Shown: positions 2,958 to 15,036 of the stretch, in pieces
Position numbering within the stretch: the first letter of the stretch is position 1
Layout: each line of letters opens with the position of its first letter
Origin: Gemmatirosa kalamazoonensis
GTDB taxonomy: Bacteria > Gemmatimonadota > Gemmatimonadetes > Gemmatimonadales > Gemmatimonadaceae
Assembly (NCBI RefSeq): GCF_000522985.1
Contig: NZ_CP007128.1
Location: 1 to 64,000, forward strand
DNA length: 64,000 nt
Direction of reading: 5' to 3'
The notes under the pieces: model-generated
What the model was told of the DNA's origin: nothing
Seen by the model: only the letters and a program-made list of their open reading frames with translations
Database searches by the model: none
Made by a program: the position numbers and the translations under genes

Positions 2958-2968
2958 GGGGGCAACCC

Positions 2969-3607
2969 TCAGTTGCTGTTAGGCACCGGCGCCGACGGCA
3001 CCGGTGGGAAGTGCGCCTGCGCCGCGATCGTGCCGCGCAGATGCGCCATTGCGTCGCGTGCGTACGCCACCACGCGAGCGGCCGGGGTGGTGCGCAGCTG
3101 CTTCGCCAGCTGGTGCGGCACCTGGGAATCGCCGGGGCGCGAGCCGATGATGCGCGCGAGCTCGGCGACGTGCGCGTCGACGGCGCCGAGCGCCGCGTCG
3201 AGTGCCGCCATCGCGTCGGCCACGTGCGCCGCGTCGGCGAGGATCGCCTCGCCCACCTGGGCGGCGCGCGCGTAGACGGCCGCCTGCTCGACGCGCGTCT
3301 GGTACGTGGCCGCGCGCTCGACGGCGACGCGCGCCTGCTCGACGGTGCGGGCGAGCGTGGTGTGCCGCGCCTGCGCGGCCGCGAGCTCCGAGACCGCGGC
3401 GTGATCGGTGCTCGGATCGAGCACCGCGACGTCGGCGCGCCGCTCGGCGGCGCCGACGGCGGCCGCGGCCTGCTTCAGCAACAGCTCGCGGCGTGCGAGC
3501 TCCGCGCGGGCAGCGGAGAGCGCGTCGGCGGCCGCGCTGCGGCGCTCGTCGACGTCGATCGGGGACGACTGGCCGGCGTCGGTGCCGGCGGGATGGGTGG
3601 TCGGCAT
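2969..3607 (-). CDS. Hypothetical helical protein, 212 aa
   Basis: Starts at ATG 3607 and ends 11 bp before the tape-measure-like gene, so the two are probably cotranscribed. The sequence is Ala/Arg/Glu-rich, with long heptad-like helices around residues 25-140 (for example ARAELARRELLLKQAAAAV), a mostly helical remainder and a proline-rich tail. I recognise no family. The position directly upstream of a tape measure is where tail-assembly or tail-completion proteins often lie, but the sequence itself does not show that role. The stop codon TAA is part of the GTTAGGC heptamer. Confidence 0.6.
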   Translation of the reverse strand: MPTTHPAGTDAGQSSPIDVDERRSAAADALSAARAELARRELLLKQAAAAVGAAERRADVAVLDPSTDHAAVSELAAAQARHTTLARTVEQARVAVERAATYQTRVEQAAVYARAAQVGEAILADAAHVADAMAALDAALGAVDAHVAELARIIGSRPGDSQVPHQLAKQLRTTPAARVVAYARDAMAHLRGTIAAQAHFPPVPSAPVPNSN

Positions 3608-3621
3608 GGACGGGGGTGCGG

Positions 3622-4011
3622 TCAGTCGGTGACGATGATCTCGCCGCGCGCGATCTCGTCGATGTACTGCCCCATGTCGCGGCGCGAACAGCTCCGGCGC
3701 GCGGCGGGGTCGGAGAGGAGCGGCGCGTCCTCACGAATCGCGATCTCGCCGCGGCCGATCTCGCCCATGTACTTCGACATGGCGACGACGTCGCGCGGGT
3801 TCACGGCCGCGGGACGGCCTCCGCTGCGGATCCGCTCGAGCTCCGCGGCGCGGGCGGCGGTCGCGTCCGCGGTGCGGGCCTGCTCCTCGAGGCGCTCGGT
3901 CACGCTGCGCGCGTACGCGTCCGCGCTCGTGACGCCGCCGGTGCGCAGGACGCGCGAGTACTCGGCGCGCTCTTCACCGCTCCAGCCTGCCCAGATATCG
4001 CTATCGCTCAT
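3622..4011 (-). CDS. Hypothetical protein with a duplicated C-terminal motif, 129 aa
   Basis: The ATG at 4011 (MSDSDIWAGW) is preferred over an ATG 99 bp upstream, because the extra 33 residues are Arg/Pro-rich translated leader. The middle part is a helical segment rich in Arg, Glu and Ala. Near the C-terminus two related motifs follow each other, MSKYMGEIGRGEIAIRE and MGQYIDEIARGEIIVTD, a direct internal repeat of about 17 residues. The gene ends 15 bp before the 212-residue gene. No family was recognised. The acidic, compact form and position would fit a small phage structural or chaperone protein, which is only inference. Confidence 0.55.
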   Translation of the reverse strand: MSDSDIWAGWSGEERAEYSRVLRTGGVTSADAYARSVTERLEEQARTADATAARAAELERIRSGGRPAAVNPRDVVAMSKYMGEIGRGEIAIREDAPLLSDPAARRSCSRRDMGQYIDEIARGEIIVTD

Positions 4012-4109
4012 CGGTTCCGCCTCGAGGGGGGGTGAGGTGTGGCGCGGCCGTCGCCGCGCCCACGACACCGCGCGCGGGCGTGTACCGCGGGCAGAGTCCT
4101 GAACGCACA

Positions 4110-4475
4110 CTAGGGCGGGCCTCGGCTGAGCGGCACTAGCCTGCTCGCCCTATAGAGATTCGACGATTCGGCCGGAGATTTCTTCACGTGTTGCCGTCGG
4201 CGCCCTCGACGAGCTGCGCGCGCGCGCGCGATCTGCTCGAGCGCCCAGACGCGCATCGCGTACAGCGTGGCCCGCTCTTTCGGTTGGCCGCTGGGCGCGA
4301 AGTCCTCGGGGAGCGTGGCGGCGATCGCGGCGATGTGCTCGCGCACCGTCCGCTTCGAGCAGCCGAGCGTGTCCGCGATGATCTTGTACCCGGGCGCCTC
4401 CACGAGCAGCTCGAGGACGCGTGTCTGCGCCGGCGTGAGCGGCCGTCGCAGCTCCACGACGGCGCGCGTCGGCAT
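4110..4475 (-). CDS. LuxR/GerE-type helix-turn-helix protein, 121 aa
   Basis: Residues 10-52 read as a GerE-like four-helix DNA-binding fold: LTPAQTRVLELLVEAPGYK, then IADTLGCSKRTVREHIAAI as scaffold and recognition helices. There is no receiver or ligand domain, and the C-terminus is a basic tail (RARAARRGRRRQ). Such stand-alone HTH proteins in phage-like elements are usually transcription or terminase-type DNA binders. The start at ATG 4475 lies 1 bp from the stop of the upstream gene (4477), suggesting translational coupling. The long basic, serine-rich tail after residue 95 may be poorly conserved. Confidence 0.6.
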   Translation of the reverse strand: MPTRAVVELRRPLTPAQTRVLELLVEAPGYKIIADTLGCSKRTVREHIAAIAATLPEDFAPSGQPKERATLYAMRVWALEQIARARAARRGRRRQHVKKSPAESSNLYRASRLVPLSRGPP

Positions 4476-4476
4476 C

Positions 4477-4704
4477 TCAGCCCTGCGCGCCTCGCAGCCC
4501 GTGTCCTCGGGGCCCGTGCAGCTGCCACAGGAACGCCCGCCACTCGTCGGCCTCCTGCCGAAGGACCCGCACGGCCGGCGCGTCGCCGAGCAGCGCCGAC
4601 AGCTCCGACAGCTCCGACAGCTCCGCGAGCAGACGCTCGACGTCCGCGACGGTGTCCGCCGCGCACAGGCGGTCTCGGTAGGCCGCCAGCTCGCGCTCGG
4701 TCAT
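4477..4704 (-). CDS. Small hypothetical protein, 75 aa
   Basis: The ATG at 4704 (MTERELAAYRDRL) overlaps the stop of the preceding gene in a TCAT/ATGA junction, which fixes this start over an upstream one. The protein is helical and contains ELSELSELS, encoded by three copies of a 9-bp repeat at about 4600-4625 that looks like recent slippage. No family was recognised. It belongs to the tightly packed run of phage-like genes 3622-5117, with gaps of -4 to about 100 bp. Confidence 0.5.
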   Translation of the reverse strand: MTERELAAYRDRLCAADTVADVERLLAELSELSELSALLGDAPAVRVLRQEADEWRAFLWQLHGPRGHGLRGAQG

Positions 4705-5117
4705 GCGCCCCGGCGACCACGCGCACGCGCATAGTCCTCCGCATCCCACCGGCGGATCTGCGGTGAGAGGAACGGCTTGGGCACGTGGAGAAGCTCGCTC
4801 AGCGCCTCGAGCACGTCGGCGCGCACGTACGCGTCCGTCTTCCAGCGCACGGCGGTGTTGAGTGGCGTGAACGCGTTGAGGCCCCGGCGCGCGGTCGCCT
4901 GCAGCACCTGCGCGAGCGAGAGACCGGCCGTGGCCATCGCGCGGGCGAGCGCCTCGGCCGAGAGGAGCCGGTGCTCGTGCAGCGCCGTCTTCCGCGGCGC
5001 GCCGCTCGCCTCGGGCGCCGTCTCGCCTGATTCGGCGGAATCGTGCGCGATATGAGGTTTTATCACGTTCTGGGACCCGATCTGAGGTTTTCTGAGGTTC
5101 TCGAATCGGCGCGGCAT
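4701..5117 (-). CDS. Hypothetical protein, possible DNA-binding, 138 aa
   Basis: Opens with a basic Asn/Lys-rich segment (MPRRFENLRKPQIG) whose DNA also carries TGAGGTT-type repeats, so part of the iteron-like region is translated here. Residues 55-105 have a helix-turn-helix-like pattern (ALARAMATAGLSLAQVLQAT followed by a second amphipathic helix), possibly a Cro/CI-like or plasmid-partition-type fold. The C-terminus is acidic then basic. The stop overlaps the next start by 4 bp. It sits just downstream of the iteron-like clusters and the helicase gene, so a role in replication control is plausible but not shown. Confidence 0.5.
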   Translation of the reverse strand: MPRRFENLRKPQIGSQNVIKPHIAHDSAESGETAPEASGAPRKTALHEHRLLSAEALARAMATAGLSLAQVLQATARRGLNAFTPLNTAVRWKTDAYVRADVLEALSELLHVPKPFLSPQIRRWDAEDYARARGRRGA

Positions 5118-5135
5118 CTCAAGTGTTATGAGGTT
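5051..5135 (+). repeat. TGAGGTT direct repeats (4 copies)
   Basis: Four direct copies of TVTGAGGTT lie at 5051, 5081, 5091 and 5127, two of them adjacent at 10-bp spacing. They straddle the start of the 138-residue gene and lie beside the second repeat cluster. The stretch has more A and T than its surroundings. Short directly repeated sites next to a replicative helicase look like iterons or an operator array. Confidence 0.6.
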
Positions 5136-5162
5136 CCGAGGCTCGGTGATGTCCCATCTGAG

Positions 5163-5380
5163 ATAGGACGCGCAGTCGCCAGATAGGGCGCGCTACGTCG
5201 TTGCGGCCCAACGGAGTGTCCTATCTGTCCTATCTGTCCTATCTGTTGAGGGGGGTAGAGAGGTGCACGACGGCGGCGCGCGTGCTGGCGAGTTGAAGTG
5301 GGTAGGACAGATAGGGCAGTTAGGACAACCGCCAGCGACGCACGCAGTTACGCGACGCCGGGATAGGACGGAGATAGGAC
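5163..5380 (+). repeat. ATAGGAC iteron-like cluster, candidate origin of the element
   Basis: Ten copies of ATAGGAC or a one-base variant occur in 220 bp. Two are in plus orientation (5163, 5183). Three are in minus orientation at exact 9-bp steps (5218, 5227, 5236). Three are in plus orientation at 9-bp steps (5303, 5312, 5321). Two lie 11 bp apart (5363, 5374). The region 5118-5392 has no convincing gene. It lies directly 3' of the primase-helicase, the arrangement seen for the cis replication region of phage P4 downstream of its alpha helicase. Origin or helicase-loading site is the main inference; a repressor operator array is the alternative. Confidence 0.55.
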
Positions 5381-5392
5381 GGCGCGTAGCCG

Positions 5393-6784
5393 TCAGCCAT
5401 CGGCCGGTTTCCAGTCCGCGGCAGGATCGTTCCACCCTCGGAACGTCGCCGGCGCGGTCTGACGGCACTCGGCGAGCGAGGGGAAGACGTACGCCCACGG
5501 GCGGGTGCCGTCCGGCGCGGTGCGGCGCACGCGCTCCACGCCCGGCACCTGCTTACTGAGAAAGCCACCCAGCACGACCTCCGACGCGCGCCGCGGCGTG
5601 CCGCGGCGCTGTGCGTGCTCGATGTAATCGTCTACCAGGCGCGATACCTCGCACGTACGTCCGTCCCGAAACCTGCTCGCCGGCAGCTCGCCGCGCTTCA
5701 ACACGTCGAGCCACCATGCGGCTTCCGGCGCGAGGCTTCGCACCTTCTGGTCGATCAGCGCGGGCGTCTCGGGGATCTGCCGCAGCTGCAGCGCGGACAG
5801 GTCGTACGCGAGCAGATACGCGAGCAGCGCGGACGCGCCGCCCGCGTCGAGCTCCCGGTCGATCGCGGCGAAGTACGGGAAGTCCCGCTCGTGCGCGTCG
5901 CCGACGTCGATCACGGCAAATCGCCTCTCCCGCTCGTTCGCCGGTACGACCCAGACGCTGTCGGCGGTGCCTAACAGCCGGACGTAGTTGCTCACCACGA
6001 CCGGTTCACGGCCCTTGCGCTCCACAACCTGCTCGTGGCCCGTGACCAGATCCTTGAGGCGCCCCACGGCCGTCGGATCGCCGGCGAAGAATGCCTCGTC
6101 CGCGTGCAGCAGCAGCAGACTCTCCAGGTGGGCGTTGAACCGCCCGACCACGTAGCGCGGGTCACTCACGAGCATGTAGTGCCGACCGAGCAACCGCCGC
6201 ATCGCCTCACCGACCTTGGTCTTGCCGGTGCCCTGCTTCCCGCGAAGAAACAGCGACGTGCCGAGCTTCGTGCGTGGTGACTGGACGATCTGCGCGAGCC
6301 AGCCGACGACCCACTCGAAGAGGCGCTCGTCGCTCTGGCAGATGTTCTCATACAGGTGTTCCAGGAACCGCGCACACCGTTCCTCCGGGTGCGGAGCGGG
6401 GTCGGGTTCGACCGCGAAGCCACGCCACAGGTTGAACGCACCCGCGATCTCGGCGTCCGGCTCGAAGACCACCCCGCGCGGATACTCGCGCCGGTCACGC
6501 GACGCGAGCCACCGATCGACGTCGGCCCTTCGAGGGCGCAACCACTCGCGGAAGGCTCGCACCGACAGCAGCCGCACCGTTGGGCGCCCGTCGCGGCCAG
6601 CCTCTTCGCACAGCACGGCAGGTTCCCCACCGACGAGCACCACGGCGTGCGTCGCATTGAACTCCGTGATCAGCGGATCAACCGGTCGAATCGTGCGCAC
6701 TCCCGCCCGACCATTCATCCGCCCGATGTCTCGTGCGGCGCGCTCGCCTTCGACGAGCAGGGGCGGCCGGTGCCGCGCAGTCAC
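5393..6784 (-). CDS. Phage/plasmid primase-helicase (DUF5906/D5-like), 463 aa
   Basis: A superfamily 3-like AAA+ helicase core is visible. Walker A is GKQGTGKTKVGE (near residue 183), Walker B is LLLLHADEAF (near 227), followed by VVERKGREPVVVSNYVRLLG and a sensor-type segment ending ERERRFAVIDVG. The N-terminal 150 residues contain FNLWRGFAVEP, which I associate with the DUF5906 primase-helicase family of phages and mobile elements. The C-terminal 100 residues are likely winged-helix and DNA-binding. It should unwind and load at the element's origin; iteron-like repeats lie directly downstream. The start ATG overlaps the preceding stop by 4 bp. No primase catalytic domain is evident here. 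Confidence 0.85.
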   Translation of the reverse strand: MTARHRPPLLVEGERAARDIGRMNGRAGVRTIRPVDPLITEFNATHAVVLVGGEPAVLCEEAGRDGRPTVRLLSVRAFREWLRPRRADVDRWLASRDRREYPRGVVFEPDAEIAGAFNLWRGFAVEPDPAPHPEERCARFLEHLYENICQSDERLFEWVVGWLAQIVQSPRTKLGTSLFLRGKQGTGKTKVGEAMRRLLGRHYMLVSDPRYVVGRFNAHLESLLLLHADEAFFAGDPTAVGRLKDLVTGHEQVVERKGREPVVVSNYVRLLGTADSVWVVPANERERRFAVIDVGDAHERDFPYFAAIDRELDAGGASALLAYLLAYDLSALQLRQIPETPALIDQKVRSLAPEAAWWLDVLKRGELPASRFRDGRTCEVSRLVDDYIEHAQRRGTPRRASEVVLGGFLSKQVPGVERVRRTAPDGTRPWAYVFPSLAECRQTAPATFRGWNDPAADWKPADG

Positions 6785-7053
6785 GCCGGCCTCCCGATGG
6801 CTTCACGCACGGCGGCGCGGTGCTGGATCAGCCGCGCGGCCGCGCGCTCGAGCATCCGCTGCGCCGTGGCCTGATCGCCGTCGGCGAAGCACTCGAGCGC
6901 CGTGGCCTCACAACGCGCCGCCTGCGCGAGCGCGTCCTCCGTGGCCATCGTGCGCGTTCCCGCGGCGAGCTCGCGACGCCAGAGCGCGAGCGCGCCGAGC
7001 AATCGGGGGCGTTGGCGCGGCGTCACGCGCGAGCCCTCCGTGCGGCGCGCCAT
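6781..7053 (-). CDS. Small hypothetical protein, 90 aa
   Basis: A helical, Arg/Ala-rich protein read from ATG 7053. Its stop overlaps the helicase start by 4 bp and it begins 1 bp after the excisionase-like gene, so the three are an operon. The pattern (residues 35-85, alternating Ala, Glu and Arg helices with ATALECFADGDQATAQRML) resembles small helical adaptor proteins, but no family is recognised. Confidence 0.55.
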   Translation of the reverse strand: MARRTEGSRVTPRQRPRLLGALALWRRELAAGTRTMATEDALAQAARCEATALECFADGDQATAQRMLERAAARLIQHRAAVREAIGRPA

Positions 7054-7054
7054 C

Positions 7055-7321
7055 TCAGGCGCTCCGACGTCGACGGGGCCCAGGGTCCGACGTCGAGCGG
7101 CGCGTCTGCTCGTCGAGCCATCGGTCGACGTCGGCCGGCCGATACCGCACGCGTCGGCCGAGCTGCACGAACACGGGCCCGCGGCCGTCGACGCGCCAGT
7201 CGCGAAGCGTGGCCGGCTTCACACCGAGCAGCTGCGCGAGATCGATCTCGGTGAGCAGCACCGCCGGGGTGTAGGGCGCCGCGGCTGCCGGCGGCTTGTT
7301 CGAATCGGAGCGTTCCGGCAT
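7055..7321 (-). CDS. Excisionase-like HTH_17/AlpA-type DNA-binding protein, 88 aa
   Basis: Contains the MerR-like winged helix of excisionases and AlpA regulators: LLTEIDLAQLLGVKPATLR, then DWRVDGRGPVFVQLGRRVRY and RPADVDRWLDEQ. These proteins bind att DNA or promoters to direct excision or switch on element genes. The ATG at 7321 (MPERSDS) is preferred; an in-frame ATG 66 bp upstream is possible. It leads the helicase operon, the usual place for such an activator in satellite-type elements. Confidence 0.75.
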   Translation of the reverse strand: MPERSDSNKPPAAAAPYTPAVLLTEIDLAQLLGVKPATLRDWRVDGRGPVFVQLGRRVRYRPADVDRWLDEQTRRSTSDPGPRRRRSA

Positions 7322-7405
7322 CTTAAGACTCCCCGCCACGTGTGGGGAAAGGGATGGGATTCGCATCGGAGGGGAAACGGCGTCCATGGGGGGCGCCGTT
7401 TTCCG

Positions 7406-7681
7406 TTAGGCGGCCGGGCGTCGCGGCCGTTCGCGGTCGTCGGCCCGGTCGTTAGGCCGCGGGCGCAGCGACGTGTTCCGTCCCTCGGCGAGCATGCGCT
7501 CGATCGACGCGCGCGTGACGAACCACCGACTCAGTTCTTTGCCGCCCTGGAGCTCGCCGATCGCGAGGCGGTGCATGACCTGGTCGCGGGAGAGGCGGAG
7601 CATCATACAGGCGCGCGGGAACGGGACGCGTTCGTCGCGGGGGCTCGTCGCGGGCGGCTTCGGGGTGGTGGCGCGGGGCAT
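7406..7681 (-). CDS. Second excisionase-like DNA-binding protein, 91 aa
   Basis: Residues 20-65 (FPRACMMLRLSRDQVMHRL, then GELQGGKELSRWFVTRASIERML) follow the same helix, recognition helix and wing layout as HTH_17 proteins, so this looks like a distant relative of the gene at 7055-7321. A good ribosome site (AGGAG, 5-6 bp before ATG 7681) supports the start. It is the first gene of the leftward transcript, divergent from the repressor-like gene at 7775, and its stop TAA lies in a GTTAGGC heptamer. Confidence 0.6.
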   Translation of the reverse strand: MPRATTPKPPATSPRDERVPFPRACMMLRLSRDQVMHRLAIGELQGGKELSRWFVTRASIERMLAEGRNTSLRPRPNDRADDRERPRRPAA

Positions 7682-7693
7682 GGTGGCTCCTGG

Positions 7694-7762
7694 TTGACTT
7701 TCGCTAGTCTATGGGTGTACCCGTTTAGACGGTAGGCGCAGAAATTCGCGTTTAACTAAACG
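7694..7762 (+). promoter_or_regulatory. Divergent control region with palindromic operator
   Basis: Between the two divergent HTH genes lies a perfect palindrome CGTTTAACTAAACG at 7749-7762, and a further CGTTTA half-site at 7722-7727. A TTGACT hexamer at 7694 may be a -35 element. The region is clearly more AT-rich than its surroundings. This is a typical phage immunity switch layout, with one operator pair controlling leftward early genes and the rightward regulator. Confidence 0.55.
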
Positions 7763-7774
7763 AGCACCCTGCCT

Positions 7775-8848
7775 ATGCCTCGACAATCGTCTCCCGCGTC
7801 GCGTACACCGCCGGCGCGCCGCACACGCGTCACTGAGTACGAGATCGCCGACCGTCGACGACTCGCGACCATCCTGCGCGAGTCCATCGTGGAGCGCGGG
7901 CTTCGCACGCTCGAGGAGGCGGCGCAGCTCGCCGGCACCACGAAGGCGACGCTGAGTTTTCTGCTCAACGAGAAGCCGGGCGCGCTGCGCGAGACGACGC
8001 TCCGCGGCCTGTTGGAGCTCGTGCCCGAGGCGCGGCACAGTGAGCTGCGCGACACACTCCTGTCCCCGTTCGAGCGCGGCCTGGAGGCCGTCCACGGTGC
8101 GTGGATGGCGCGCGAGCTGTTGCCCCGGGGCGTCGCCGCCTACGACGAGACCCCGCCGGTCCTGGCCGTGTGGCAGCCCGACGGCGTTCATCTCGTCGCC
8201 GGACGAGGGTTCGAGCTCCTCGAGGCGGCGGCCCGCCTGTGGCCTGTCCCGTTTGCTATCGCCGACGAAGACGGCACCGTTGCGCCGCGGTGGTTCAGCT
8301 GGTGGATGGCGGATTACGCGCACCTGATGCTCCGGCTCGGTCGTATCCCGCGCGTCGTGGACGCCACGCGGCGCTTCGAGCGTGCCCTGATCGCACGACA
8401 GCACATCCCAGCGAGCGCACGCGGTCAGTTCGTGCGCGCACTCGAGGGCGGCGAGGACGTCGACGCGAGCGGCGCCGACGAGACGAAGTTGGATCGGCTG
8501 CGCTCGGGACACTCGTCGAGCGGATGGCGGGCGCATCACGCGTGGATCCGCGTGCTCGAGCCGCTGCTCGACGGCCGCTGCAGCGGCGGGATCGAACGGC
8601 TGTGGGAGGAGCTAAGCGACGAAGAGCTGTACGTGTTCATCACGGCCGGCTTTCGACGCGAGTTGATCCTTTTGAACCGTGCGCCGGACATGCAGCGTGC
8701 GAGACAGGTCGGCGCGGCCACGCCCGCGGACCTGCGGACTCACGTCCCGTTGTGGGACGCGACCACCTTCCGGCTCGAGGAGGCCCAGCGAGCTGTGAGC
8801 GCAGCGTCACGGCAGCGAGGAGGCGCGCGCAACCGACGGTCCCGTTAG
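7775..8848 (+). CDS. HTH repressor-like regulator of the element, 357 aa
   Basis: Residues 25-80 look like a lambda-repressor-type HTH: RRRLATILRESIVERGLRT, then LEEAAQLAGTTKATLSFLLN as helices 2-3. The remaining 270 residues are a helical domain of unknown type with conserved-looking aromatic patches (WFSWWMADYAHLMLRLGR). It is transcribed alone on the plus strand, divergent from the excisionase and helicase genes across a palindromic operator. I infer the element's master regulator. No protease (LexA-like S24) motif is seen, so control by cleavage is unlikely. Confidence 0.6.
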   Translation: MPRQSSPASRTPPARRTRVTEYEIADRRRLATILRESIVERGLRTLEEAAQLAGTTKATLSFLLNEKPGALRETTLRGLLELVPEARHSELRDTLLSPFERGLEAVHGAWMARELLPRGVAAYDETPPVLAVWQPDGVHLVAGRGFELLEAAARLWPVPFAIADEDGTVAPRWFSWWMADYAHLMLRLGRIPRVVDATRRFERALIARQHIPASARGQFVRALEGGEDVDASGADETKLDRLRSGHSSSGWRAHHAWIRVLEPLLDGRCSGGIERLWEELSDEELYVFITAGFRRELILLNRAPDMQRARQVGAATPADLRTHVPLWDATTFRLEEAQRAVSAASRQRGGARNRRSR

Positions 8849-8854
8849 TCGCGA

Positions 8855-9154
8855 TCATCGGCCGACTAACGAGAGCGCGTGCGCCGCGGCCCTCCGTCGC
8901 GCGCGGCACGACGCATCCGCGCAGCCGCGCACGACGCCGAGCGCGGGGCGCCGCGGCGGGTCGAGCGTGTCGAGCACCGTCCGCAGCGCGTCGATCGCCG
9001 GCCACACGTCGGCGCACGGCGCGACGTAGCACTCGGCGACCAGCTCCCCATCATGGCCCATCGCGACGACGCGCACGCGGCCGCCCACGCGGAGGCGCGC
9101 GACGTACACCCCGCGCGCCTCGCACTCCATCGGGTCGGTCTCGTGTCTCAGCAT
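8855..9154 (-). CDS. Small hypothetical protein, 99 aa
   Basis: Read from ATG 9154. Residues 12-60 (GVYVARLRVGGRVRVVAMG and following) suggest a small beta-rich domain. They resemble the equivalent part of the upstream gene (GVYLAPYLRDGRPVLLAIDD), so these neighbours may be diverged duplicates. Last gene of the packed run 8855-10364; it converges on the repressor-like gene with a 6-bp gap. No function is assignable. Confidence 0.5.
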   Translation of the reverse strand: MLRHETDPMECEARGVYVARLRVGGRVRVVAMGHDGELVAECYVAPCADVWPAIDALRTVLDTLDPPRRPALGVVRGCADASCRARRRAAAHALSLVGR

Positions 9155-9429
9155 ACGACGAGCTCCACGCGCCGCGGCGCGCGCGACGGGGCGATGCGCT
9201 CGAGCTGCGCCTCGAGCGCGCCGATCGCACGCACGAGGGGCCAGTCGGCCGGCACGGTGCGCGCGGCGCGCAGCTCGCCGGCGTCGTCGATCGCGAGCAG
9301 CACCGGGCGGCCGTCGCGCAGGTAGGGCGCGAGGTACACGCCGCGCTCGAGCAGCTCCCCGCCGCGCTCGCGCCCCGCGGCCGCGGCGAGCGTCGGCGCA
9401 CCGCGGCTCACAGTGAGGGCGGGCGTCAT
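9148..9429 (-). CDS. Small hypothetical protein, 93 aa
   Basis: The ATG at 9429 overlaps the stop of the preceding gene (9426-9428), which selects it. Layout: a short N-terminal MTPALTVSRGAPT, then ERGVYLAPYLRDGRPVLLAI and a helical end with LVRAIGALEAQLERIAPS. The first lines parallel those of the next two upstream genes (MTRALTLSRDG and MRALLRLTTSAP), pointing to a small duplicated family. The stop overlaps the start of the next gene. Confidence 0.5.
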   Translation of the reverse strand: MTPALTVSRGAPTLAAAAGRERGGELLERGVYLAPYLRDGRPVLLAIDDAGELRAARTVPADWPLVRAIGALEAQLERIAPSRAPRRVELVVC

Positions 9430-9806
9430 CGGTCCGTCTCCTGGACGGACAGCGCGAGCACTCGGAGCACGCGCGCCGCCTCCGTCGGGGAAGTCTCCAG
9501 CGCGTTCAGCGCCCCGCCAGCGACGAGCGAGCGCAGGGCCGCGTAGTCTTCGGGGAGCTCGCGCTGCAGCACCACGGGCCGTCCGGCACCGGGCCGCACC
9601 AAGATCAGATCGCCGGGCGCTGCCGCGAACGGCCCGCAGATGGCGCACTCCGCGCGCAGAACGATCGGGCCTAACGACGCGAACGGCGCGAACGACGTGG
9701 GCGGCACCGACGGCGCCGTCGGTGCCGTCGGTGCGCGGCGCGCGCGCGGCGCATGACCGAACCGAGCCGACGCGCCGTCGCGGCTGAGGGTGAGGGCGCG
9801 CGTCAT
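9426..9806 (-). CDS. Small hypothetical protein, 126 aa
   Basis: Residues 62-100 contain GDLILVRPGAGRPVVLQREL, a short beta segment shared in outline with the upstream 68-residue gene (GDRILVSPRGRVSLL), and both end in VQETDR. A Cys pair (CAIC) lies near residue 55. It overlaps both neighbours by 4 bp. The middle has a low-complexity APTAPTAPS stretch. It is probably a diverged tandem copy of the adjacent genes; function unknown. Confidence 0.5.
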   Translation of the reverse strand: MTRALTLSRDGASARFGHAPRARRAPTAPTAPSVPPTSFAPFASLGPIVLRAECAICGPFAAAPGDLILVRPGAGRPVVLQRELPEDYAALRSLVAGGALNALETSPTEAARVLRVLALSVQETDR

Positions 9807-10009
9807 CGGTCAGTCTCCTGGACGGCGAGCGCCAGCTGCTCGACGGTGATGGTGCGCAGGAGGGAGACGCGGCCGCGCGGCGAGACCAGGATCCGGTCGC
9901 CCCGTTGGAGGCCGGCCGCGGGCAGGTCCTTCGCGACGACGTAGGTGCCCTGGCTGAGGCGCGCCGGCGATGCCGGCGCGCTCGTGGTGAGTCGGAGGAG
10001 GGCGCGCAT
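9803..10009 (-). CDS. Small hypothetical protein, 68 aa
   Basis: The ATG at 10009 (MRALLRLTTSAP) lies 1 bp after the stop of the upstream gene and has a purine-rich leader. It carries a compact beta motif (GTYVVAKDLPAAGLQRGDRI and following) resembling a small OB- or AbrB-like strand pattern, but too short to assign. The C-terminal VQETDR and the DNA around the stop are nearly identical to those of the 126-residue gene. Confidence 0.45.
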   Translation of the reverse strand: MRALLRLTTSAPASPARLSQGTYVVAKDLPAAGLQRGDRILVSPRGRVSLLRTITVEQLALAVQETDR

Positions 10010-10010
10010 G

Positions 10011-10364
10011 TTACGCGGCCTCCAGCTCGAGGGCGTCGACGCCATGCTCGTCGCCGTCGTTGCCGTACGCGAGCGCGTGGAACTGGTCCTGACAGCGGCC
10101 GACGTGCATCGGCTCGAGTCCGACCATCGTGAACGGCGCGGCCCCGATCGGCGCCCCGCACCAGACGCAGTCGCGCGGGTGGGACGCCAGGTACGCCGCG
10201 ACGCGGGCGGCGTGCGCCACGCGGCGCTCGGCCTCGAGGCGGCGCGCCCGGGCGGCGTCGTCGGCCGACGCGTAGTAGATCGGGCCGATGTGGTAGGGGC
10301 CGAACTCGGCGAGCAGCTCGCGCTCGACGTCGGCGATGGTGGGGACGGCTGGCGGCGTGTGCAT
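10011..10364 (-). CDS. Hypothetical protein with possible zinc-binding Cys/His cluster, 117 aa
   Basis: The ATG at 10364 (MHTPPAVPTIADVEREL) has a strong GGAGG site a few bases upstream, preferred over an upstream ATG without one. The sequence CVWCGAPIG, then HVGRCQDQFH, could hold one zinc ion (CxxC...HxxxC). The first half is helical with LLAEFGPYHIGPIYYAS. It heads the leftward run of small genes and faces the XRE gene across the large dyad at 10504-10551, from which its transcript probably starts. Confidence 0.5.
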   Translation of the reverse strand: MHTPPAVPTIADVERELLAEFGPYHIGPIYYASADDAARARRLEAERRVAHAARVAAYLASHPRDCVWCGAPIGAAPFTMVGLEPMHVGRCQDQFHALAYGNDGDEHGVDALELEAA

Positions 10365-10503
10365 GCGGGCGCACCTCCGGTTGACCGGGGCAGCCCCGCG
10401 TTGCAATCTTTGCATCGCGAGCCCTCCCCGGAGGGTGAGCAGGCGCGGCGTGTCGGGTCACTTTCCTAGGGCGATCCCGGCCGCCGCGTTACTTGTGAGC
10501 CTC

Positions 10504-10551
10504 AATATACGGTAATTCGGATTGCGCGCAAGATACGAATTGGCGTATATT
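10504..10551 (+). promoter_or_regulatory. 48-bp dyad operator with divergent promoters
   Basis: The arm AATATACGGTAATTCG (10504-10519) and the arm CGAATTGGCGTATATT (10536-10551) are inverted copies with 14 of 16 positions matching. TTGCGCGCAA lies at the centre. Each arm carries a TATATT-like -10 sequence, one per direction. The rightward TATATT (10546-10551) lies 7 bp before the GTG start of the XRE gene, so that transcript would be leaderless or nearly so. The XRE protein probably binds here and represses itself and the leftward genes. Confidence 0.6.
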
Positions 10552-10558
10552 CTCGCCC

Positions 10559-10789
10559 GTGCTTACGGTGATTCGATTCCGCCTCAGGGAAGTTCGTGAG
10601 CAGCGCGAGCTTACGCAGCTCGAGCTCGCGGAGCGCGTCGGTGTCCGTCAGGCAACGATTAGCGACCTGGAGACCGGCCGCGCGAAGACGCTGCGGCTGA
10701 CCCTCCTGGATGCGCTGTGCAACGCGCTGCAGGCAGAGCCGGCGGAGCTGATCGAGTACGACCCTCCGAAGCGCCGGAAGAGCGCGTGA
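10559..10789 (+). CDS. XRE-family HTH regulator, 76 aa
   Basis: A single Cro/CI-type HTH: REVREQRELTQLELAERVGV, then RQATISDLETGRAKTLRL. It ends in a basic tail (PPKRRKSA). Length and form are those of small antitoxin-like or phage repressors. GTG 10559 is chosen because the promoter-like TATATT is only 7 bp upstream. First gene of a four-gene plus-strand unit (10559-12521) and probably autoregulated through the adjacent dyad. Confidence 0.8.
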   Translation: MLTVIRFRLREVREQRELTQLELAERVGVRQATISDLETGRAKTLRLTLLDALCNALQAEPAELIEYDPPKRRKSA

Positions 10790-10807
10790 CCCTCAACCGC
10801 TGAGGCC

Positions 10808-11077
10808 ATGAAGCGCTACGCGCTCGAGATCTACGAGCCTGGCACGACACAGGACGTGCTCGTGTACTTCGAGTCCGACACGCCTTTCCAGGCGATTTCC
10901 CGCGGAGATCTGCTCGGCGCCGGTGCCTGGGGTGGCTCAGGGTACAACCTCGGCGACATGCTCCGCGTGGTGGGGATCGAGCACATCGTGATCGAGAGCT
11001 CGCCAGCGCCCATGCACAAGGTCTGCGTGTTCACCGAGAACGTCGACGACGGCCGCGCCGCGCGACGCGGACAGTGA
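10808..11077 (+). CDS. Small hypothetical protein, 89 aa
   Basis: Begins at ATG 10808, 18 bp after the XRE gene. The sequence has mixed alpha/beta character (RYALEIYEPGTTQDVLVYFE, then DTPFQAISRGDLLGAG and LRVVGIEHIVIES). The pattern of two strands around a helix suggests a small single-domain binding protein. No family recognised. Its stop overlaps the GTG of the next gene (GTGA), implying coupled translation. Confidence 0.55.
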   Translation: MKRYALEIYEPGTTQDVLVYFESDTPFQAISRGDLLGAGAWGGSGYNLGDMLRVVGIEHIVIESSPAPMHKVCVFTENVDDGRAARRGQ

Positions 11078-11382
11078 GCGAGTACGCAGGGAGCGAAGCT
11101 CGCGTGAGCGACGCCGCGGACGGGCGGCGCGATCGTTGGAGCGCGCGCGTCATGGCGGTCGCCGCGGCACGGCTCGAGCTGCTCGGCGCCGATCGCGACG
11201 CGCTGCGCGCCACGCCATGTGACGCGCTCGCGGCGGAGGCTGAGCGACTCGCCGCACTCGTGATCCTCGAGCATGGGCGCGACGCCGCACACGCGCTGCA
11301 GCTGCTCGACGTGTTGCGCGAGCTCGTGCACCGCCTCGCGACAGAACCGGCGCAGGCGGCACCCCTGCGCAGGAGCGCATGA
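11074..11382 (+). CDS. Small helical hypothetical protein, 102 aa
   Basis: GTG 11074 overlaps the preceding stop by 4 bp, and its own stop overlaps the next ATG by 4 bp (ATGA), so this gene is clamped between two coupled partners. It is almost fully helical, Ala/Arg/Leu-rich, with ARLELLGADRDALRATPCDA and a long C-terminal helix. No motif. Probably a partner or immunity-like subunit of the large downstream protein, judged by coupling alone. Confidence 0.5.
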   Translation: MSEYAGSEARVSDAADGRRDRWSARVMAVAAARLELLGADRDALRATPCDALAAEAERLAALVILEHGRDAAHALQLLDVLRELVHRLATEPAQAAPLRRSA

Positions 11383-12521
11383 CGGCACCGCGCGCCGTCC
11401 CGTCTATCGGCTCCGCTGACGACGTGCTCCGCTACATGGCGCGCGCGCTCGAGGCGCGCGGTGAGCCGCTCGGTCTGAACGCGCGCGTGGACTTCGAGCC
11501 GCTATTCGCCGCGTTCCGTGCTGGCGATCTCCCGCACTTCATGGTGCATTTCGACAACGCGGAGCGAGCCCACGGGTGGATTCAGCACATCCCTGGCTCG
11601 GGTTTGCAGGTCCAGTTCACGCCGCGCGGATTCGAGCGCGTCGGCCATCTCGTCATGCCGGCGCGCGACGTTGAGATCGCGGCCCGCGTCGCCGCTGATC
11701 GGTTCGCTGAGGCGCTGGCGGCGCTGCCGGCTGAGCTAAAGGCGCTGCAGGCGAGCGAGACGCGTGTAGGCATGTTGCATAGCGGCCGACACACGCTTGG
11801 TGCCACGAGACTGGTCGAGGAGGCTGCCGAGCGTGGGTTTCGGGCCGCCCTGGAGGCGTGGCTGCAGGTGCTGCGGCGGCGATCGATCGAGCCATCCGCC
11901 GAACTCGTGGCGACGATCGTCGCGTCGATCGGCGACGCGTTCGATGCGTCGGAACCGACACTCCGCCATCCCTTCGTCTCACTGGAACGTCTCGGACGGT
12001 TGCTGCGCGCCCCCGACGCGATCCTCGCCGACGCGAAGGCGAAAGGCCTCGCGTTCATTCAGTCGGAACTCTCGCTCGAGGCGATCGCGCCCGGTGCGCC
12101 GGCTGAGAGTCACCGGGCGCCAAACGCGTCGCTGAGCGCCGGAGACCACAACATCAGCCTCGTGATTCACGGTGACGTCGGCGTCGTGCAAGCCGGCGCC
12201 GGCGCACAGGCGTCCGTGACTATGCAGCCGGACGCGCTCGATGCGCTGCGCGACTCGCTCGAGCAACTGCGCGGCCTACTCGAGGCGCAGGAGTCGGACG
12301 CGGGATCCGAAGGCTCTACGTCGATGGTGGGCCCGATCAAGGAGACCGTCGACGCCGCGATCGTGGAGTCACGCAAGCCGACACCCAATCCGATCACGAT
12401 GCGCGGCCTCCTTGTCGGCATCGCGACGGCCGTGCAGACCATCGGGGCGGCGCCGCAAGCGTACGAGCTCGCTCGCCTGGCCGCTCGGCACTTCGGCGTT
12501 GAACTGCCGCAGCTGCACTGA
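11379..12521 (+). CDS. Unknown 380-aa cargo protein with a central strand motif
   Basis: An N-terminal mixed domain (residues 1-105) is followed by a helical region (105-250), then a short beta segment (255-285, NISLVIHGDVGVVQAGAG) and C-terminal helices. The HGDVGVVQAGAGA type of segment, followed by a helical tail with KPTPNPITMRGLL, reminds me of connector and tail segments in bacterial abortive-infection or conflict proteins such as AbiTii-containing ones. That is memory-based and weak. It is the last and largest gene of a coupled four-gene unit with its own regulator and terminator inside a phage element, so accessory cargo is the best reading. Confidence 0.5.
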   Translation: MTAPRAVPSIGSADDVLRYMARALEARGEPLGLNARVDFEPLFAAFRAGDLPHFMVHFDNAERAHGWIQHIPGSGLQVQFTPRGFERVGHLVMPARDVEIAARVAADRFAEALAALPAELKALQASETRVGMLHSGRHTLGATRLVEEAAERGFRAALEAWLQVLRRRSIEPSAELVATIVASIGDAFDASEPTLRHPFVSLERLGRLLRAPDAILADAKAKGLAFIQSELSLEAIAPGAPAESHRAPNASLSAGDHNISLVIHGDVGVVQAGAGAQASVTMQPDALDALRDSLEQLRGLLEAQESDAGSEGSTSMVGPIKETVDAAIVESRKPTPNPITMRGLLVGIATAVQTIGAAPQAYELARLAARHFGVELPQLH

Positions 12522-12556
12522 GCGCGTGACTCCGGCCGAGTCGGTCGCCTAACGCA

Positions 12557-12587
12557 GCACGGCCCCGGGGCTGCACCGGGGCCGTGC
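12557..12587. terminator. Perfect hairpin terminator, bidirectional
   Basis: GCACGGCCCCGG (12557-12568) pairs perfectly with CCGGGGCCGTGC (12576-12587) around a 7-base loop. It sits between the convergent ends of the 380-residue gene (12521) and the integrase-associated gene (12607). There is no strong T-run on either side, so it is an intrinsic terminator of the GC-rich type or a transcript stabiliser. Confidence 0.75.
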
Positions 12588-12606
12588 TCGTCTCCGACAG
12601 CGGCCG

Positions 12607-12912
12607 TTAGGCGCGGCTATCCGCGGCCCCGTCGTCGCTCATGCCGAGGTAGCGGCGCGCGGCACGACGATACAGCTCGCCATAGCTCGAGCCGCGGATC
12701 ACCTGCTTCGTGCCGCGGTGGTCGGTGAACTCGGCCGCGAACGCTCGCCCGTCCCGGCGCGTCTTGAAGTCGCGATACACGTTCCACAGCGCCGCGCCAG
12801 CGGCGTTCAGCTCCGGGGCGTGCACCTCGGGAGGGTCCGTCGCGATGCGCTGCAGCTCGTGGCGCACGTGGTCCGGTAGATCGGCTACGTCGGGTACGTT
12901 GGGCGTCGGCAT
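12607..12912 (-). CDS. Hypothetical protein cotranscribed with integrase, 101 aa
   Basis: Starts at ATG 12912, 30 bp after the integrase stop. It carries an alpha/beta pattern: helical N-terminus (LPDHVRHELQRIATDP), then NVYRDFKTRRDGRAFAAEFT, DHRGTKQVIRG and SYGELYRRAARRYLG. No family recognised. Position after an integrase suggests a directionality or accessory factor, unproven. The stop codon lies in a GTTAGGC heptamer. Confidence 0.55.
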   Translation of the reverse strand: MPTPNVPDVADLPDHVRHELQRIATDPPEVHAPELNAAGAALWNVYRDFKTRRDGRAFAAEFTDHRGTKQVIRGSSYGELYRRAARRYLGMSDDGAADSRA

Positions 12913-12942
12913 TCCTCGATTGGGAGCGGGTGTGGTCTCGCG

Positions 12943-14352
12943 TTAGGCCTCGCGCCGCGTGATCGGCAGCACCTTCGCCGGCGTCAGGTCCGCGTCGAGC
13001 AGCGCTGCGATCTCGCGCGCGACGTCGTCGGCCGCCTTCCGCACCAGCACGTCTGGGACCGCGCCGTAGCGGCTGGTCATCGTGCTGCCGACGGTGTGGC
13101 CGATCAGCACCGCGATCACGTGGTCGCCGTACCCGAGGCCTCGCGCGACGGTCGTGAAGCCGTGGCGCAGGCCGTGGAGCGTCAGCGCGCCGTCCTTCGC
13201 CATGCCGAGGCCCGCCGCGTGGCGCACGATCGCCCACTCGGTCCCGGGGCGGCTGCGCGGCCTGGCGGGCCTGGCGGGCGTGACGGGCCGCGCGCCGGGG
13301 AACACGTACGGCGAGCCCGCGTCGGCCTCGAGGCCGCGCAGCACCGCGATCGCCGCCGCGCCTAACGGGCGCACGCTCTTTCCCGACTTCGTCTCCTGGA
13401 GCGTGGCCACGCCGCGCGCGAGGTCGACGTCGGCCCAGCGCAGCGCGCGCGCCTCGCTCTCGCGCCAGCCTGAGAGCGCGAGGAAGCGGAACAGCGCGAC
13501 GAGCCGCGGATCCCACGGCGTCGGGCGGACCGGGCGCACCTTCAGCCCCGCGGCCTCGCGCGCCGCGCGCTTCGCCACCGCCGGCCGCTGGCTCGGCGCG
13601 CGCAGCTCCGGCGGCAGGCGCAGCCCGTCCGCGGCCGCGCGCCGCAGCGCGGTGCCGATCGCGGCGTACTGCGCGTCGGGCACGCCGCGCGCGCGCGAGC
13701 GCTCCGGGTACCGCTCGATGTGCGCCGCGGGGTTCGTGTGCGCCGGCCGGAGCTCCTCGCGCTCGGCGTACGCGAACATCGCATGCAGCACCGTCAGCAC
13801 GCGGTTCGCCATGTACGGCCGGTCGCCGAGCTCGTGGTGCAGCTGCGCGACGTCGCGGCGCGTGACGTCCTGCAGCTTCCGCGCGCCGAGCTTGGGCGCG
13901 ATGAGCCGCTCGACGATGTCGGTGAACTGCGCGATCGTGCGCGCACGCTTCCCCTTCCGCGCGCGGTCCTCGAGGTAGCGTGTCGCGAGGTCGCGCACCG
14001 TCGGCGCGAGCCGCTCGGCGCGCGCCTCCACCTTCGCCGCCTTCGCGCGCGTGGCGGGATCGCGCACGGCCGGATCGCGCCGCGCCGCCACCGCGGCGGC
14101 GTACGCGTCGCGCGCGGCCGCGCGCGCCTGGTCAACCGTCATCGGCCCGAACTCGCCGAGCGTGAGGCGCCGCGTGCGGCCGCCGACGTCGTCGTACTGG
14201 AAGACGAACGTCTTCCGCCCGCTCGGCCGCACGCGGAGGCCGAAGCCCTTCACGGCGCCGTCGCCGCCGTCCCACAGGAACACGTCGCGCGACGGCTGCG
14301 GGGCCGTCGCGTCGATGGTGCGCTTCGTCAGCGGGCGCGCGAGCGTCGGCAT
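12943..14352 (-). CDS. Tyrosine recombinase/integrase of the element, 469 aa
   Basis: P4-type layout. An N-terminal arm-binding DUF4102 domain (residues 1-95, LTKRTIDATAPQPSR, GLRVRPSGRKTFVFQY, LTLGEFGPMTVDQARAAA) is followed by a SAM-like core-binding domain (about 110-230) and the catalytic domain. Catalytic residues seen: Arg in SGWRESEARALRW, His and Arg in LHGLRHGFTT, His in GHTVGST, and the nucleophile Tyr in TSRYGAV. The roughly 60 residues between the core and catalytic domains (RPAVAKRAAREAAGLKVRPV) are Pro/Arg-rich and longer than usual. It lies at the right end of the element facing inward, next to greA, with candidate arm sites in its leader. Confidence 0.92.
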   Translation of the reverse strand: MPTLARPLTKRTIDATAPQPSRDVFLWDGGDGAVKGFGLRVRPSGRKTFVFQYDDVGGRTRRLTLGEFGPMTVDQARAAARDAYAAAVAARRDPAVRDPATRAKAAKVEARAERLAPTVRDLATRYLEDRARKGKRARTIAQFTDIVERLIAPKLGARKLQDVTRRDVAQLHHELGDRPYMANRVLTVLHAMFAYAEREELRPAHTNPAAHIERYPERSRARGVPDAQYAAIGTALRRAAADGLRLPPELRAPSQRPAVAKRAAREAAGLKVRPVRPTPWDPRLVALFRFLALSGWRESEARALRWADVDLARGVATLQETKSGKSVRPLGAAAIAVLRGLEADAGSPYVFPGARPVTPARPARPRSRPGTEWAIVRHAAGLGMAKDGALTLHGLRHGFTTVARGLGYGDHVIAVLIGHTVGSTMTSRYGAVPDVLVRKAADDVAREIAALLDADLTPAKVLPITRREA

Positions 14353-14354
14353 GG

Positions 14355-14390
14355 TGGGCAGGTCGAGCGTGGGAAGGTCATGGGAAGGTC
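14355..14390 (+). repeat. Three TGGGMAGGTC repeats, candidate integrase arm sites
   Basis: TGGGCAGGTC (14355), TGGGAAGGTC (14370) and TGGGAAGGTC (14381) lie in direct order just upstream of the integrase start. Short direct repeats beside an integrase gene at an element end are typical arm-type binding sites flanking att. The rest of 14391-14494, up to the greA stop, holds no gene. It is the likeliest place for the right attachment core, which cannot be defined without the left end. Confidence 0.45.
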
Positions 14391-14494
14391 CAGAACCCGA
14401 CTACGCCCAATCTCGGCCGACGCCAACCGCGCTGCAAGTCGTTGCGCCCCAACGATCCCCGACACCGACCCCAACAGGCCCGGCGTGCCTAACG

Positions 14495-14962
14495 CTATTG
14501 CTGATGGATCGTCTTCAGCTCCACGACCTTCAGCCGCCGCGTGACCGTGGGCAGCTTCAGCACCACCAGGTCCCCCACGCCCTTGCCGACGAGCGCGCGC
14601 CCGATCGGGGAGCCCATGCTGACGTGTCCCTCCTGGAACTCGACGGCATCGCCGAACACGAGGCTGTAGGTCTCGCGCGCGCTCGTCCGCTCGTCCTCGA
14701 CGACGACGACCGAGCCGAGGCCCACCTTGTCTTCCGGGATCTGCGACGGGTCGATCGACGAGAGCTTGCTGAGCCGCTGCGTCAGGTGACCGAGTCGCGC
14801 CTGCACGAACTGCTGGCGCTCGAGCGCGGCCTTGTACTCGCTGTTCTCGCGCAGGTCGCCGTGCTCGACGGCTTTCCGGATCTCCTGCGGGAGCGTGACG
14901 TTCAGCTCGTGCCGGAGCCGGTCGACTTCCTCGCTCAGCGTTCGCTTCAGTTCCTCGATCAT
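14495..14962 (-). CDS. greA: Transcription elongation factor GreA, 155 aa
   Basis: GreA rescues backtracked RNA polymerase by stimulating RNA cleavage. The N-terminal coiled coil (MIEELKRTLSEEVDRLRHEL, then EIRKAVEHGDLRENSEYKAA) carries the conserved acidic tip GDLRENSEY. The C-terminal FKBP-like domain has SPIGRALVGKGVGD. The length matches the family (about 158). ATG 14962 is chosen over an upstream in-frame start because the family begins there. It is the first chromosomal gene beyond the integrase; its 3' end faces the element and may be near the integration point. Confidence 0.93.
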   Translation of the reverse strand: MIEELKRTLSEEVDRLRHELNVTLPQEIRKAVEHGDLRENSEYKAALERQQFVQARLGHLTQRLSKLSSIDPSQIPEDKVGLGSVVVVEDERTSARETYSLVFGDAVEFQEGHVSMGSPIGRALVGKGVGDLVVLKLPTVTRRLKVVELKTIHQQ

Positions 14963-15036
14963 CGTCCTGAGGCCTGGGACAACAAAAGGGAGCGCCCGAC
15001 CCATCCGAGGCCGGGCGCCTTCCCGACTTCAATCTA

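Follow-up and report, generated by a model that had tools for sequence, protein, structure and literature searches.

Gene content of the locus

The window, meaning the whole stretch of 64,000 bases that was analysed, forms the beginning of a 5,311,527-bp contig (C2) of a 7.48-Mb genome in four contigs, and it carries a compact cassette of four genes situated within an integrative element. The cassette opens with the gene of a small XRE-type regulator, followed by the ORFs of two small proteins (p2 and p3) and one larger protein (p4), and is framed by a dyad on one side and a hairpin on the other:

10504-10551, no strand assigned: imperfect 48-bp dyad between divergent units, holding the sites O1 and O2 (repeat search)
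10559-10789, forward strand: XRE-type regulator, 76 aa, GTG start, possibly leaderless (HTH_26, E=3.4e-15)
10808-11077, forward strand: p2, 89 aa, predicted small beta protein (relatives; model pLDDT 82; BFVD match)
11074-11382, forward strand: p3, 102 aa (no convincing relative)
11379-12521, forward strand: p4, 380 aa (no family; C-terminal relatives; model pLDDT 56)
12556-12588, no strand assigned: GC hairpin between convergent genes (16-nt arms, 94% complementary, z = -3.2)

The regulator gene and the three ORFs behind it agree with the original prediction: GTGA and ATGA overlaps join p2, p3 and p4, and the third-position GC of the four cassette ORFs is coding-like at 0.81-0.86, the values for the integrase, primase and orf357 of the element being 0.97, 0.85 and 0.84. 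The same prediction had seen no known family here, which stands for p2-p4 in the libraries searched (Pfam, NCBIfam, PHROG and PADLOC-DB) but not for the XRE regulator, the only cassette gene with a match. PADLOC-DB 2.0 returned 0 matches for p2, p3 and p4 and a generic HTH match for the regulator, while p2-p4 matched no toxin family in Pfam and NCBIfam and no replication, partition or packaging family. The regulator resembles phage regulators, some of them annotated cI, at less than 50% identity. At the end of the cassette a strong terminator had been proposed; the hairpin is present, but it lacks a run of T, and it is probably a terminator without a T tract.

Limits and gene content of the element

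Comparison of the window with contig C1 and with the end of C2 places the cassette in an integrative element of 14,997 bp, inserted at the 3' end of greA and present in two forms, as a chromosomal insertion and as a circle (C1). The other features of the element and its border are as follows:

5393-7681, reverse strand: orf91, orf110 (excisionase-like), orf90 and DUF5906 primase/helicase (Pfam and PHROG searches)
7775-8848, forward strand: orf357, HTH-like, facing the excisionase-primase operon (layout; HTH by eye; weak LacI match, 0.09)
8855-10415, reverse strand: divergent leftward unit of small ORFs with 134, 80, 126, 93 and 99 aa (ORFs; no families)
12607-12912, reverse strand: orf101, convergent with the cassette and downstream of the integrase (ORF list, Pfam search)
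12943-14352, reverse strand: tyrosine integrase of the element (phrog_1, 5e-51; Pfam)
14495-15004, reverse strand: greA (Pfam GreA_GreB)
14499-14513, no strand assigned: attR core TGCTGATGGATCGTC at the greA 3' end (junction comparison)

The core TGCTGATGGATCGTC is common to both chromosome junctions (attR, and attL at about C2 5,307,518) and to the junction of the circle (attP), and the last codons of greA together with its TAG stop are restored by the inserted element. The sequence of C1 (20,952 bp; L004 and L005) recurs every 14,997 bp and matches window positions 1-14513 plus the 484 preceding bases near the end of C2. Given this period, the deposited 20,952-bp circle holds a repeat of 5,955 bp, which is 99.9% identical, the differences being a few indels close to the end of C1. 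Since the chromosome record likewise ends in 3,511 bp that repeat its own beginning (window 1-3511; C2, L014 7515-11528), the excess in C1 is read as assembly redundancy and not as a true 21-kb circle, although a real tandem copy could also be its source. The shared core and the circular record, taken with this redundancy, point to site-specific integration and to excision as a circle, as in satellites.

A 21-kb high-copy element that overlaps the chromosome has been published, with a coverage of 376x compared to 118x for the chromosome, and a phage was suggested as one possibility (PMC3974934). By the comparison above, that element is the same 14,997-bp element, assembled as a circle with the 5,955 bp repeat, and the published 21-kb 'phage' record could be corrected to 15.0 kb.

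From right to left, the gene order is integrase, orf101, cassette, divergent small-gene unit, orf357 and a long operon read leftward. This operon contains two HTH_17 genes, of which one matches excisionases (phrog_66, 8e-14), as well as the gene of the DUF5906 primase, small genes and one for a protein of 1024 aa. Integrase, excisionase-like or AlpA-like, and primase genes, as sought in a satellite, are all present; orf110 also shows a generic HTH match to a terminase-small-subunit profile, and the PHROG search gave no capsid, portal or large-terminase match in the element. The locus had been described as a phage element, of which the mobile, integrative character is retained but the phage label is not, no structural genes being recognised; with integrase, excisionase-like and primase genes but without a recognised capsid or terminase gene, the element instead looks satellite-like. 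A full-text literature search for phage satellites in the phylum Gemmatimonadota yielded no report. The 1024-aa protein (L004:6323-9397, reverse strand; about window 1-2957 plus the C2 end), at one end of the element, is tape-measure-like by eye; it has no family match, and there are no other recognised tail genes in the element.

In the divergent leftward unit, the first ORF (134 aa) has a weak match to a DksA-like zinc finger, beyond which no family matches were found for the small ORFs. Those at 9148-10045 (reverse strand) have similar starts (M.RALTLSR) and similar ends (VQETDR), giving them the look of tandem duplicates. A second divergent control region lies at 7682-7774, between orf91 (reverse strand) and orf357 (forward strand), with the palindrome CGTTTAACTAAACG at 7749-7762, and orf357 is a candidate for the master repressor of the element, as is this region for its master switch. 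Because orf357 faces the excisionase-primase operon, the XRE cassette is probably cargo, placed between the integrase and the master repressor.

A separate observation concerns the octamer GCCTAACG, which occurs 40 times in the window (e.g. at 12547-12554 and 12605-12612) compared to 0.9 expected under an order-2 Markov model, and 4,469 times genome-wide, where the reversed control gives 133. Its copies are balanced between the strands and fall within and between genes; among the Gemmatimonadaceae genera sampled, roughly one in three shows strong enrichment and the others show depletion. This distribution resembles a DNA-uptake-sequence-like genome-wide signal; neither the octamer nor DNA uptake sequences in Gemmatimonadota were mentioned in the literature covered by the full-text search, and the octamer may merit separate study.

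Putative operator sites and promoters

A 48-bp dyad with divergent promoters had been proposed upstream of the regulator gene. The dyad is found, with 19-nt arms (10504-10522 and 10533-10551) that are 84% complementary, and by itself it barely exceeds shuffled sequence (18 of 24 arm positions, with a shuffle maximum of 17). The promoters were not confirmed, as a scan for the sigma-70-type consensus, which need not apply in this phylum, gave no match at the divergent region; by reading of the sequence, TATATT hexamers lie at 10546-10551 (forward strand) and 10509-10504 (reverse strand), with TTGCGC 16-18 bp upstream. Unlike the dyad alone, the 12-mer repeated in it is far beyond chance, AATATACGNNAATTCG occurring twice in the window, both times inside the dyad, on opposite strands and with zero mismatches. 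A related site follows within the start of the regulator gene, giving three sites in all:

10508-10519, forward strand: O1 TACGGTAATTCG, overlapping the leftward TATATT hexamer
10536-10547, reverse strand: O2 TACGCCAATTCG, overlapping the rightward TATATT hexamer
10564-10575, forward strand: O3 TACGGTGATTCG, inside the XRE gene, in its first codons

The three 12-bp sites share the pattern TACGNNRATTCG, alternate in strand at an exact spacing of 28 bp and lie within 68 bp over the divergent promoter region. Elsewhere in the genome the pattern occurs at only 7 places, none near another, and the chance of three such sites within 68 bp is of the order of 1e-9. As a regulatory finding the array is new, and we regard it as the putative operator of the XRE regulator, whose position suggests that it is the protein binding O1-O3; the leftward small-gene unit is probably under the same operator. 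In the mechanism that we propose, an XRE dimer would bind the three sites spaced 28 bp apart, repressing its own operon through O2 and O3 and the divergent small-gene unit through O1, and both units would thereby be kept low and would rise together once repression is lifted. The earlier reading of the cassette as a unit under separate control within a mobile element agrees with this layout, in which the cassette has its own three-site putative operator, is bounded by the hairpin and stands apart from both the integrase unit and the probable master switch at about 7682-7774.

Relatives of the cassette proteins

Judged by its relatives, p2 belongs to an unnamed and undescribed mobile-element family. 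Its relatives include a protein near an integrase in a Kiloniellaceae genome (55%), one beside Ner-like and S24 repressor genes in a Mu-like viral contig (47%), one in a second viral contig that carries a terminase-like gene (45%), and one in a Gemmatimonadota genome (G065), flanked by a type IIG restriction gene and the candidate defence gene PDC-S68 (43%). Further relatives reside at Pantoea and Salmonella plasmid loci, where by eye they directly follow resolvase-like sequence (L027 5402-6237; L025 6788-7162). Relatives of p2 are seen with no co-directional XRE gene next to them. The p2 model is a small all-beta protein. In BFVD it matches the predicted viral protein A0A3G8FGB6, of 78 aa (E=9e-7, TM 0.76/0.86), with weaker matches to several small, uncharacterised phage proteins; against the PDB no fold match was found, the best Z of 4.5 being uninformative. 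For p3, matches at E of about 1e-3 were rejected as Ala/Arg-rich, low-complexity pieces of long frames.

The p4 protein comprises a poorly modelled part (residues 1-95), a helical part (95-236), a Gly-rich linker with GDVGVVQAG and a C-terminal helical bundle (283-374); the model is poor and shows no catalytic site. In the genome search, residues 247-380 matched 270-aa proteins in two genomes of one Gemmatimonadota genus at 32-35% identity (E=4.5e-8), and a profile search gave E values of 1e-58 and better for these relatives, with a profile that contained those sequences or a near relative. In one of the genomes (G299) a relaxase gene is followed by the p4 relative and, 26 bases on, by a PLD nuclease gene, with a type II methylase nearby; in the other (G151) the neighbours of the relative include a DUF1156-type methylase and a PLD-SNF2 helicase. 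Peptide-pattern searches of the phage, plasmid, viral-contig and genome-contig collections found no p4 relatives. Among p4 fragments with E above 1e-4 from other Gemmatimonadota, those inspected (G028 and G170) lie in other frames of an acyl-CoA-dehydrogenase/ABC-ATPase region and were set aside as chance matches. Profiles of p4 and p2 gave nothing convincing against PDB sequences, Foldseek with the p4 model gave no match at E<=0.001, and what VIA-align returned for p4 (Z as high as 11.6) was dismissed as helical bundles and designed proteins within bundle noise.

The whole of p4 was found only as three copies within the same genome. The four-gene order was found nowhere else in the collections searched, and no locus holding a relative of one cassette gene held a relative of another. 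The idea of a recurrent system, for which the same order was sought elsewhere, thus fails, leaving a single well-defined unit.

Interpretation

The four genes are best explained as cargo, an accessory operon carried by an integrative, satellite-like element of 15.0 kb that circularises, with XRE as the presumed repressor of the operon and p2-p4 most likely engaged in inter-element conflict, and we put the probability of this reading at roughly 0.4. The cassette products, chiefly p4, would act against competing phages or mobile elements, by interference or exclusion. In satellites of the PICI kind, accessory genes have been reported between the integrase and the regulator that faces the excisionase-primase genes (PMC6092414). 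Interference with phages or other elements is our best guess for the cassette, favoured because of the neighbourhoods of the p4 and p2 relatives and the usual cargo at that satellite position, and given only moderate weight because the loci are few (for p4, two genomes belonging to one genus; for p2, a single genome); the other p2 relatives, sitting in ordinary phage or integrase contexts, run counter to it. The original prediction had also noted a likeness to anti-phage cassettes, which finds no PADLOC match and draws solely on the Gemmatimonadota relatives of p4 and p2 that adjoin defence genes. It is conceivable, if rather unlikely, that p2-p3-p4 under the XRE switch constitute an undescribed interference system of Gemmatimonadota satellites, in which p4 would share its GxVQxG linker and C-terminal helical module with chromosomal defence-island proteins.

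The main rival, which we find doubtful, sees in the cassette an immunity and maintenance module, with XRE as the CI-like immunity repressor of the element, rex-like companions behind it, and the leftward unit as an early operon that XRE silences. A divergent regulator with several candidate operator sites, three in number, resembles a lysogeny switch, and both the likeness of XRE to phage regulators, cI among them, and the p2 relative beside the repressor genes of a Mu-like prophage would fit. The leftward unit, however, consists of small genes with no clear replication gene, and the early replication and excision genes that a lysogeny switch would control were not found in it; the excisionase-like and primase genes (reverse-strand operon from 7681) instead lie behind orf357 with a palindrome of their own.

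Since the element circularises and has high coverage, it needs copy control, and the cassette could serve such self-control (copy number, partition, excision or packaging); p4 would then be one of the element's own DNA-bound or assembly proteins. The p4 C-terminal relatives adjoining a relaxase and the p2 relatives near integrases or in phages accord with this, whereas the missing replication, partition and packaging families in p2-p4 and a gene order not kept in other elements speak against it, and we consider it unlikely. Least likely is a toxin-antitoxin or addiction cassette, a resemblance also noted originally, with XRE as antitoxin-regulator and p2, p3 or p4 as toxin. The small XRE gene in first position, the overlapping genes and the putative autoregulatory operator would suit such a cassette, but p2-p4 match no toxin family, p2 is modelled as all-beta with no PDB fold match, and its relatives occur without an operon XRE partner; with generic HTH matches as the sole family evidence, we rejected this reading as unlikely.

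If the cassette does interfere with phages, it would offer a system whose regulator is easily tested, given three short and regular operators. Even with ordinary cargo, the element represents a defined integrative unit that circularises, in a cultured type strain of Gemmatimonadota.

Comparison with known systems

Relatives of the p4 C-terminus and of p2 lie in defence islands (DISARM-like, DUF1156-type) that contain PLD nuclease, methylase and helicase genes, but none of these effector genes is found in the cassette. In the cI-rexAB operon of lambda, a small HTH regulator gene stands first with accessory genes behind it, there are three operator sites, and the mRNA may be leaderless. With this and other lysogeny-conversion operons the cassette shares the regulator-first unit, three sites at divergent promoters (putative here) and a possible leaderless mRNA. 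It differs in that XRE has no C-terminal domain, no clear replication gene is found in the divergent unit, and the cassette proteins are, as far as family searches go, unrelated to RexA and RexB.

Compared to PICI/SaPI and P4-like satellites, the integrase here is co-directional with the primase operon, neither terS nor interference genes are recognised, one end carries a 1024-aa tape-measure-like gene, and the host phylum is Gemmatimonadota. As the integrase direction differs and helper dependence would be an assumption, we call it satellite-like and have not filed it as a PICI. It has in common with these satellites the size of about 15 kb, a specific att site, integrase, excisionase-like and primase genes, the lack of a recognised capsid or terminase, a divergent regulator that faces the excisionase-primase genes, and accessory genes located between the integrase and that regulator.
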